64,000 bases of DNA from Granulicella mallensis MP5ACTX8 (GTDB lineage Bacteria > Acidobacteriota > Terriglobia > Terriglobales > Acidobacteriaceae). The stretch lies in assembly GCF_000178955.2 (NCBI RefSeq), contig NC_016631.1:5456001-5520000 (forward strand), given 5' to 3'. Below, piece after piece: positions 13,624 through 48,283 of the stretch (positions within the stretch are counted from its first letter, which is position 1; each line of letters begins with the position of its first letter). The notes below the pieces were generated by a model that was given only the letters and a program-made list of their open reading frames with translations, was not told where the DNA came from and ran no database searches. The position numbers were made by a program, and so were the translations under genes.

Positions 13624-13844
13624 CGTCATCCTGAGCATAGCGCCTCGCGTTTTTTGCGAGGTGCGGAGTCGAAGGACCCCGAAAGACTTGATCTCACCCA
13701 GGAGGTTGGGACCTTTTCCCGCACGAGAGTTCAGGCTCGAGCGCTCGAGGTAGAGAAACTCCAAAGGGCATAGGCAAGAGGTCAACCCTCGGGGTCCTTC
13801 GACTACGCGTCCCCAAAGGCCGGGACGCTCCGCTCAGGATGACG
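13624..13844. repeat. Dispersed palindromic intergenic repeat, copy 1
   Basis: A 221-bp element bounded by a perfect 13-bp inverted repeat (CGTCATCCTGAGC at 13624-13636, complement at 13832-13844). A second nested inverted pair lies inside (GGAGTCGAAGGACCCCGA and its near-complement CTCGGGGTCCTTCGACT). The reverse complement resembles the element at 45675-45888 along most of its length. It fills most of the 393-bp gap between convergent genes. Confidence 0.85.
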
Positions 13845-45674: not shown

Positions 45675-45888
45675 AACCGTCATCCTGAGCGAAAGCGTCC
45701 CGGCCTTTGGGCGCGGAGTCGAAGGACCCCGAGGATTGCAGTCTTGCCCATGCCGTCGGACCTTTTCCACTTCAAGCGCTCGAGCCTGCGCCTTCGTGCT
45801 GGAGAAGGTCCCAACATCATAGGCAAGATCAAATCCCTCGGGGTCCTTCGACTCCGCACCTCGCAAAAGCGCGAGGCGCTTCGCTCAG
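45675..45888. repeat. Dispersed palindromic repeat, copy 2, interrupted by the IS110 element
   Basis: The left arm AACCGTCATCCTGAGCG (45675-45691) should pair with a right arm, which is split: CGCTCAG ends at 45888 and GATGACGGTT resumes at 47138-47147, after the insertion. The inner nested palindrome includes CGGAGTCGAAGGACCCCGAG (from 45714). Its reverse complement resembles 13624-13844 throughout. Confidence 0.85.
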
Positions 45889-45984
45889 CGACTGTCTGTG
45901 CTGTCAAGAGAGGGTTATGGGAAAGCGGAAAACGATGAAGCCGTTTCCCTCTTTCCCACAACCTCTGCGGTTGTTGGGATTGAG

Positions 45985-46922
45985 TTAGACGGGGAGCGGT
46001 GGTGTTTGGAACTGTTGGCGAACTTGTCTGGCTTTGGCGTTGAGTCGTACGAGGAGTTTGTGAGCCAAGGCGATACGAACGACCTTAGGGGGTTTGCCAG
46101 CGTCGCGGAGCCGTTGCTGAAAGGCGATGAAGTCGGGTTCGTGACGGCCTACGACGCTGGCGACGATGAAGAGGATTTCGCGGATGGAGGGGCGTCCGCC
46201 ACGCACCACACGCCTGCCTTCGCGTTTTCCGCTGTCGCGGGCCAGGGGAGCGAGCCCGGCCAACTTGGAGATGGTCTTGTTGGACAGGGTGCCGATCTCG
46301 GGCATCTCGGCCATGAGCCGGGCCACGGTGCGGTCAGCCACGCCTTTGATGGTGCGGAAGGCCTGATCCAATTGCTTCCATAGTGGATCGGCGGCGATGA
46401 GGGCGGCGATGGCGGCGGCCAACTGGTCCATCTGCCCCTTCAGGAACGCCAGCAACTGGTCGATGGCGGCCAGCACTTCGGTATCGGTGACCAGACGGCG
46501 CTGGTTCCGTTGCGCTGTGCGCACCTCGGTGAGCTGGCGCAGACGCGTGACCTGGGCCCGCAACTGGCGTTGCCGCTGCGTCCCCAGCACGCTTGGCACG
46601 GGCTTGCGGACCTCCGCTACCAGGCAATCAGCCCCGCATCGATGGCATCGGTCTTCTCCGTTACCCCCATGCCTTCGGCGAACTGCCGCACAGACCGCGG
46701 GTTCAGAATCGCTACGGCCAGCCCCTCGCTCGCCAGCAAGGCGAACGGCTGTTGCTCGTAGCCCCCGGTGGCTTCCATCGCCACCAGCTGCACCTGATGG
46801 GCACGGCAGAATCCGGCCAGCTCTCCGATCCCTGCCACGCTGTTGTCAAACGTCGCTGCCGCTCCCTCTCTGCCGATACGAACCGACAAGCTGAGGGAAG
46901 ATACATCTACTCCACAAATCAT
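45985..46922 (-). pseudogene. IS110-family transposase broken by a one-base frameshift
   Basis: The N-terminal part, from the ATG at 46922 (MICGVDVSSLSLSV), has the DEDD-type RuvC-like residues: D in GVDVS, E in AMEATGG and the aspartates of KTDAIDA. It stops at a TAG at 46617-46619. The C-terminal part (IS116/IS110/IS902 domain, with LAGLAPLARDSGKREG holding the probable catalytic serine) continues in another frame to 45985. One missing base near 46617 would restore AWYAEVRKP. The site has no slippery run, so programmed shifting is unlikely. The intact protein would be about 313 residues. Confidence 0.85.
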
Positions 46923-46924
46923 GC

Positions 46925-47100
46925 GCGTCACGGTGTAACCTGCCTTGTATGTGCGATTGCATAGTCTTCTGACTGTTCGGTCGTACCCTGACTTGGGCAG
47001 CGGTCCCTGGGCTGAGCGTCGGTGGTTGATCACCTCAGGATGAACGGGTGCCGTCCGCCCGTGGGGGAACCGATGCCTCGGTTCCCCCCTCTACAACAGA
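46925..47100 (-). ncRNA. Candidate IS110 bridge RNA
   Basis: Non-coding minus-strand DNA just upstream of the transposase, the place where IS110-group elements encode bridge RNAs. From its 5' end it has a hairpin (11-bp stem 47088-47078 with 47073-47063). A stem-loop follows with TCATCCTGAG (47043-47034) identical to the target across the core, and CGCTCAG (47018-47012) complementary to the right target half. A second region has ACAGTC (46976-46971), matching the end of the element, and ATACAAG (46950-46944), complementary to its start including the CT core. Guide assignments are by eye. RNA ends are approximate. Confidence 0.7.
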
Positions 47101-47367
47101 CTCTAACGAATGACTGTTGATCTCCTATAGATACAAGGATGACGGTTCGGTGGGAGATGAACAAAGCCCATCGCTCTATCTGCAACATCCTCATTCTTCG
47201 ATGAAACTGGCACTCATCGTTCCGACGCAGGAGCGTAACAAATCGCCAAAAATTGACGGAACCTTGTAGTCTGTCTGCGCATCCAATCGGAAGAAATACA
47301 ACACCTGTTGCGTAAAATGCATGTGTTGCTTATATTTCAAGTGTTGTCCAAGTTTCGAGGAGAGATG

Positions 47368-48072: not shown

Positions 48073-48283
48073 TTGTTTTTCGTCGTCATCCTGAAGCGTA
48101 GCTGAAGGCCCCGCGTTGGTCCGCTGGGGGGGCGCCAGACCAATGGGTAGGGCTGTGGCTGGCAGCGTTCGCTCCAGTGGCATCGTGCAGAATGTGGGGG
48201 GCCTTCGCCGATCCACCCCAGCAAGCGCAAAGTGCGCGCTCGCCGGGGACCCCGGTATGGCTCAGGATGACGACGAAAAACAA
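48073..48283. repeat. Palindromic intergenic element with 22-bp terminal inverted repeats
   Basis: A 211-bp element whose ends are perfect 22-bp inverted repeats (48073-48094 and 48262-48283), containing CGTCATCCTGA as in copies 1 and 2. The interior is GC-rich and not similar to those copies. No open frame of note lies inside. It also carries the target-like CTCAGGATGACG (48261-48272), which is uninterrupted here. Confidence 0.8.

Follow-up and report, generated by a model that had tools for sequence, protein, structure and literature searches.

Among the closest described systems is IS621 of Escherichia coli, which combines a recombinase with DEDD and Transposase_20 domains, a CT core, a REP-like target, and a 177-nt bridge RNA encoded upstream of the gene, with a 5' stem-loop followed by a target loop and then a donor loop, a promoter at the circle junction, and handshake bases, according to the parts of the two reports drawn on here (PMC11208160, PMC11208158). 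The seekRNA of ISEc21 is likewise encoded upstream, with its bottom-strand match before its top-strand match, and ISMch6, compared with ISEc21, has undergone a natural change of target along with a change of guide (PMC11187229). All tabulated copies of ISPpu9, ISPpu10, ISPa11, and ISRm19 in the genome studied were associated with REP sequences of the host (PMC1525189). Since the preference of IS110 elements for palindromic repeats (PMC1525189, PMC11208160), the large-scale covariation of guides and targets (PMC11208160), and one natural redirection (PMC11187229) were already known from the passages cited, the element described here is a new example within the known kind of bridge RNA. No paper listed in the literature searches was about this element, judged by title and opening of the abstract, although it may be in the supplement of PMC11208160.

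The window analyzed here is a 64,000-nt stretch of the Granulicella mallensis MP5ACTX8 genome. It contains an element at 45889..47137 on the minus strand (1,249 bp with one CT core counted), whose ends are common to three other copies in the genome; a second copy of the CT core, at 45887-45888 on the minus strand, adjoins its right end. With slashes setting off the core, the ends read CT/TGTATC (left, from 47137) and ACAGTCG/CT (right, to 45889), and the flanks are ACCGTCATC/CT on the left and CT/GAGCGAAGC on the right. We conclude, with a probability of about 0.94, that the left-end segment (46923..47137, minus strand; supported by alignments of 10 and of 16 left ends) encodes an IS110-group bridge RNA, which would be transcribed, bound by the recombinase, and used in catalysis. 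The element shares with IS621 the recombinase domains, core, RNA layout, junction promoter, handshake bases, and REP-like target listed above, and with ISEc21 the upstream position, the order of the strand matches, and, among its relatives, natural retargeting along with altered guides. The bridge RNA very probably tells the element where to land, namely in a short repeat scattered over the host genome, whereas the site of ISEc21 lies inside other IS elements, and ISPpu9, ISPpu10, ISPa11, and ISRm19, compared by description, belong to other hosts and other repeats.

The layout of the element is that of the IS110 group, with a left end of 206 bp up to a GTG, a shorter other end, a CT core on both sides, and no long target duplication. 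Two minus-strand fragments of the recombinase gene score above the Pfam cut-offs: 46617..46931 with DEDD_Tnp_IS110 (PF01548, 56.6 bits; match region 46617-46922, as submitted to the Pfam search) and 45985..46599 with Transposase_20 (PF02371, 54.5 bits). The two domains are in different frames in the window copy, whereas copies L003 and L004 in the same genome have both in a single unbroken frame. Alignment with these intact copies places the break at a 1-nt deletion, where the window reads TGG-TAG, ending the first fragment, and the intact copies read TGG-TTC-GCG; inspection of this site by eye revealed no slippery run for a programmed frameshift. The same one-base deletion leaves both the window copy and a further copy, L002, without the intact recombinase frame of the group, and the window element is a defective member of it. 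The motifs GVD, MEAT, KTDAIDA, and DSG of the intact L004 recombinase align by eye with those of ISCro4, and in the window the first three are retained in fragment 1 and DSG in fragment 2. In a PDB search with the L004 protein, the nearest solved structures were the ISCro4 transposase (9t56; E 6.7e-30), a relation of sequence only, and IS621 (E 7.7e-28), of which the recombinase is a distant homologue.

The earlier note on this DNA had singled out four short minus-strand matches in the left end, TCATCCTGAG at 47043-47034, CGCTCAG at 47018-47012, ACAGTC at 46976-46971, and ATACAAG at 46950-46944, and had read them as the left and right guides of a target loop followed by those of a donor loop. 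All four are present at these positions, and their order, which is that published for bridge RNAs, is borne out; in each loop, the left guide equals the top strand and the right guide is complementary to it. The left target guide consists of TCATC, the core CT, and a G (47036..47043); it equals the left flank plus core and tracks the flanks in relatives. Two of the ten bases of the longer match across the CT are fortuitous, because relatives differ at the first of them and the second belongs to the apical hairpin and is invariant; we therefore rejected the whole 10-nt match as the guide. The right target guide CGCTCAG (47012..47018, with the core guide AG at 47012-47013) is the complement of the right flank CTGAGCG and also tracks the flanks in relatives. 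The left donor guide ACAGTC (46971..46976) is an eroded version of the ACAGTCGC of most relatives; it equals the right-end tip and changes with that tip in ATAGTC elements. The right donor guide ATACAAG (46944..46950) is the complement of the left-end tip CTTGTAT and overlaps a Shine-Dalgarno-like AAGG. All four guides are thus legible in the unannotated sequence, and natural variation provides a check on them. Of 20,000 dinucleotide-shuffled versions of the left end, with the 20-nt tip excluded, 21 contained TCATCCTG, 274 CGCTCAG, 167 ATACAAG, and 3,350 ACAGTC, and none contained TCATCCTG and then CGCTCAG in order. ACAGTC, which occurs twice in the left end (other copy at 47117-47112), is therefore weak evidence by itself, and its significance in isolation was rejected; conservation in relatives is what supports its role as a guide.

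Relatives were obtained from a scan of GTDB contigs (20 loci, including Acidobacteriaceae, Silvibacterium, Terracidiphilus, Methylobacterium, Caulobacter, and Microvirga), from genome searches with matches, at the E-value of each search, in 5 of 150, 8 of 397, 9 of 9, and 5 of 397, the set of nine being genomes picked for already holding loci, and from a Rhizobium plasmid (one further locus). Loci were merged if the last 20 flank bases and the left end were identical, which gave 27 insertions with 15 distinct guide sets; both flanks were available for 26 insertions and 14 sets. Merging removed duplicates of a single place, such as L005 of L004, reduced seven Methylobacterium copies, with left flanks of only 6 nt at contig ends, to one, and dropped L078. 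L007, L031/L042/L055, and L032/L052 were excluded for an unusable left end, and L030 has no right end. One of the excluded loci, L042 of Occallatibacter, holds at 1501-1760 an element with left tip and right end that has lost the guide region and gene start.

The earlier note had asked whether related copies at other sites keep guides that do not match their flanks. They carry other guides, and these match their own flanks better than flanks shuffled among guide sets. With one insertion per guide set and 14 sets, the left guide agreed with the left flank at an average of 54.6 of 70 cells over five positions, compared with 33.2 (sd 4.4) in shuffles, and the right guide with the right flank at 67.6 of 84 cells over six positions, compared with 36.6 (sd 4.6); the base of the left guide after the core equaled the first right-flank base in 14/14 sets, compared with 8.3 in shuffles. 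None of 2,000 shuffles reached even the lowest observed total, in a test uncorrected for shared ancestry. The six acidobacterial guide sets alone give a weaker result, with 22 of 5,000 shuffles attaining the observed total. Tracking of the flank involves about five left target bases here, compared with seven described for IS621, and the right target guide is longer than in IS621, with 5-6 bases past the core (PMC11208160, PMC11208158).

Individual relatives illustrate the range of agreement. The left guide AGGCC of L018 equals its flank AGGCC, and the right guide TTCTGAG faces CTCAGGA with one G-U pair; in L021, CCACC equals the flank CCACC, and GGGAGAG faces CTCTCCC. In Microvirga L033, the right guide CGGGTGAG accompanies the flank CTCACCCG, and the left guide matches at only three of five positions. 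Many rows show mismatches in the left target guide, with three or four of five positions agreeing. In the L070 group, with left guide CACAC, the flank is CACAC in three of the five insertions and GCCAC or CGCAC in the others, and in the five copies of genome G200, the left guide matches the flank at one or two of five positions in the register of the alignment and better with a one-base shift chosen post hoc. The right flanks of the seven Methylobacterium copies are CTCTCCC in five and CTCCCCC, with one mismatch to the guide, in two, and L078 has CTCTCCC where its guide calls for CTCACCC.

The donor guides are nearly fixed. The right donor guide is ACAAG in 26/27 rows and ATAAG in L030, and the left tip is CTTGT in 26/27 and CTTTT in L030, a tip change uncompensated by the guide. 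At the left donor guide, most rows have ACAGTCGC, and L069, L071, L072, and L075 have ATAGTCGC together with the right end ATAGTCG. Between donor guides and ends, one change is matched (ACAGTC to ATAGTC, spread over three guide sets but possibly a single event) and one, in L030, is unmatched. With its target guides rewritten, the lineage preserves a concise history of retargeting, and its members offer ready-made pairs of guide and target for probing how far the target loop can change. In Microvirga L033, at ~2900-2960, the segment of the left donor guide is tandemly duplicated (CGACCGAACAGTCGC twice).

The target had been proposed to be a palindromic intergenic repeat, and a dispersed palindromic repeat with 225 exact 12-mer sites in the host was indeed found: TCATCCTGAGCG occurs 225 times in the 6.24-Mb genome, compared with one occurrence of the reversed control, and among the matches listed it is often in inverted pairs ~205 bp apart. 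The same pattern occurs 26 times in G200 and at most twice in G411, G534, G802, and G523. TCATCCTGAG occurs five times in the window, the guide included, compared with 0.18 expected. The rest of the interrupted repeat lies at 45680..45888 (no strand assigned), with the other inverted arm TCATCCTGAG at 45680-45689. Further copies of the ~200-bp inverted pair are found in the window at 13626-13842 and ~48080-48275, the latter with a changed base in one arm. By description, the repeat is similar to the CGTC-tagged REP class in starting with CGTC and in being paired in inverted orientation, the inverted pair here spanning ~205 bp (PMC3733652); the genome contains six matches to the tyrosine transposase family PF01797.

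Sites of relatives are multiplied as well. CCCCTCATCCG, common to the L072 and L073 sites, occurs 114 times (G802) and 79 times (G523) in their own genomes, against 4 to 10 in each of the remaining four. For CACACCTCACCC, the count is 24 in G534 and between 0 and 2 in each of the other five genomes, and CCACCCTCTCCC occurs 15 times in G411 (control 1), 11 times in G534 (control 2), and 1 to 3 times in the other four. CGYCCCTCCGGG, present at three of the five G200 sites, was not enriched in G200 itself (2 matches, compared with 6 for the reversed control); in G523, which is without this guide, it occurs 14 times (control 3). Thus, four of the five target patterns tested, that of the window element and three further ones, are multiplied in the host of their element and that of G200 is not, a count in which a mild bias toward repeats is possible because the patterns were chosen from observed insertion sites.

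Conservation of the fold had been named as a test of the bridge-RNA reading, and relatives do preserve the fold, with compensatory changes. RNAalifold predicts 46 pairs from ten left ends, of which 14 are changed on both sides. When the three pairs joining the core guides are omitted, the resulting 43-pair version has pairing in 94.8% of 425 cells, and 13 pairs are changed on both sides, compared with 5.8 (sd 1.6) in shuffles and with 3 to 8 when partners are slid, the consensus being favored over the slid versions because it was derived from the same sequences on which it was scored. All helices lie on the minus strand. A first hairpin, CAACAG...CTGTTG (47094..47119; helix 1, 4/7 pairs changed on both sides), precedes the 5' stem-loop GGGGGAACCG...CGGTTCCCCC (47063..47088; helix 2, 7/13 pairs changed on both sides) and is an extra conserved element compared with IS621. 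The small GGTG...CACC hairpin that the earlier note had seen between the two target guides is the apical hairpin of the target loop (47021..47034; helix 4), with three pairs, none changed on both sides. The window left end folds 3.45 sd better than shuffles (0/200 as good); the consensus donor-loop stem is absent from its own single-sequence minimum-energy fold.

A covariance-model search, also proposed earlier, scored 132 bits at 46934-47088 of the window; as the model (R1) was trained on the window and the other sequences that it then found, its matches to these are by construction. Over the 35 sources searched, the model found nothing convincing in distant IS110 loci (E 0.52-0.58 in L062, L063, L065, and L067). 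L073 contains a second, shorter bridge-RNA-like match to the model on its minus strand (823-919, 40.7 bits), perhaps a remnant of another copy. Only a tRNA reaches the Rfam gathering score in the window, but Rfam may hold no bridge-RNA family, and none of the papers cited makes such a match part of the definition, so that this result carries little weight.

The two ends carry the halves of a putative promoter, a -35-like TTGACA in the right end (45902..45907, minus strand) and a -10-like TATCTA in the left end (47128..47133, minus strand), which would be 17 nt apart once the ends are joined. In 20/26 elements the joined ends give TTGACA/G, 17 or 18 bases, and TATCT, and the other six have TTGACC; by consensus, this is a junction promoter of the kind that belongs to IS110 bridge RNAs. 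In the IS621 structure paper, the handshake guides are the bases just 3' of the core guides and form pairs with the partner DNA once strands have been exchanged (PMC11208158). In the present alignment, the target-loop handshake base is C in 26/27 rows (T in L030) and the donor terminal base is G in all 26 elements that have a right end, so that C faces G in each of the 26. The donor-loop handshake base is G in 27/27, and the left target terminal base is C in 25/27 and T in 2/27. At the second handshake position, the window has no match.

A standard IS110 bridge RNA, presumably expressed, bound, and active in recombination, accounts for the locus most simply. The element would leave as a circle, and joining of its right and left ends would create the promoter TTGACA-17-TATCTA. 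The transcript would fold into the 5' stem-loop, the target loop, and the donor loop; the target loop would pair with TCATC-CT on the bottom strand and CT-GAGCG on the top strand of the dispersed palindromic repeat, the donor loop would pair with the joined ends ACAGTCG-CT-TGTAT, and the recombinase would exchange strands at CT.

An alternative that we consider very improbable is that the left end serves solely as a structured leader on the transposase mRNA, with matches at the guides that arose by chance or from copied flank. The donor-loop stem does overlap the probable GTG start of the recombinase (46929..46931, minus strand), which lies inside the 3' arm of that stem, as well as the Shine-Dalgarno-like AAGG, and a regulatory 5'-UTR is described for ISPpu9 in the portion of the report cited (PMC8450116). 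The corresponding GTG opens the longest frame in 26/26 elements examined, a count that is partly by construction because extraction relied on the same motif; loci without it are those with a missing left end, distant IS110s, or tyrosine-transposase loci. A leader, however, needs no guides at fixed alignment columns that change with the flanks of each insertion, a match reached in 0/2,000 shuffles. The two roles could coexist: with the GTG in the donor-loop stem and the right donor guide over AAGG, a recombinase that binds the transcript encoding it would mask its own start codon, if the overlap is real. Assignment of the element to the IS1111 group instead of the IS110 group is extremely improbable; guide RNAs and DEDD recombinases occur in both groups, but a non-coding region upstream of the gene, with the bottom-strand guide before the top-strand guide, is the IS110 pattern in the account cited (PMC11187229), and the solved relatives found were IS621 and ISCro4.

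A bridge RNA of the IS110 group thus being the preferred identity of the RNA, a separate question concerns the state of the window copy. All four copies in the host genome (window, L002, L003, and L004) are inserted at one position of the repeat, GTCATC/CT/GAGCG. L002 shares the frameshift and the guides and is identical to the window copy at all but one of 1,249 positions, and it occupies another copy of the repeat elsewhere in the genome, with flanks of its own. L003 and L004 are 77% and 76% identical to the window copy at the DNA level and have an intact 323-aa frame from the GTG and the same donor-end sequence. The left donor segment is ACAGTCAG in the window and L002 and AGAGTCGC, with one mismatch, in L004; with ACAGTCAG instead of ACAGTCGC, pairing of the left donor guide in the window and L002 extends over only 6 bases, compared with 8 or 9 in most relatives. 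The earlier note's interpretation is supported as far as it went, but it had missed the broken recombinase frame, the short left donor guide, and this near-identical second copy.

Because it has no intact single-frame recombinase and has lost bases of the left donor guide, the window copy is probably non-autonomous and may depend on the intact relatives elsewhere in the genome. The same two defects would fit a dead relic, a former bridge RNA in an element no longer mobile by any route, and we give this somewhat under even odds, since L002 carries the same frameshift and guides in a different repeat copy and the genome also supplies intact 323-aa recombinases from elements with the same donor-end sequence. 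The near-identity of L002 at another site may reflect movement in the broken state, in trans, or gene conversion, or the indel may be an assembly error made twice. A more elaborate proposal, which we regard as speculative and rather improbable, is that the window copy and L002 are non-autonomous guide-RNA elements that have spread with recombinase, and perhaps also bridge RNA, supplied in trans by the intact copies of 76-77% identity, and that, with the donor loop over the ribosome site and start codon, an RNA-bound recombinase represses its own translation and so links enzyme supply to the occupancy of the guide RNA. Broken yet duplicated copies raise a testable question of movement in trans; this frameshifted, near-identical pair beside intact relatives, and the GTG start inside the donor-loop stem, are the less ordinary features of the locus.

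A similar palindrome appears at insertions of a distant IS110 in Methylobacterium sp. NEAU 140 (L062-L068), whose protein is 36% identical to the Caulobacter protein and whose left and right guides read CTCATCCTG and CACCTCAG. Its left flanks are CTCATC/CT in L062, L064, and L066, and not in L063, and its right flanks are CT/GAGGTGC in L065 and L068 and CT/GAGGCGC in L067, the other ends being cut by contigs. On these flanks and guides, a distant IS110 lineage is aimed at a palindrome similar to TCATCCTGAG.
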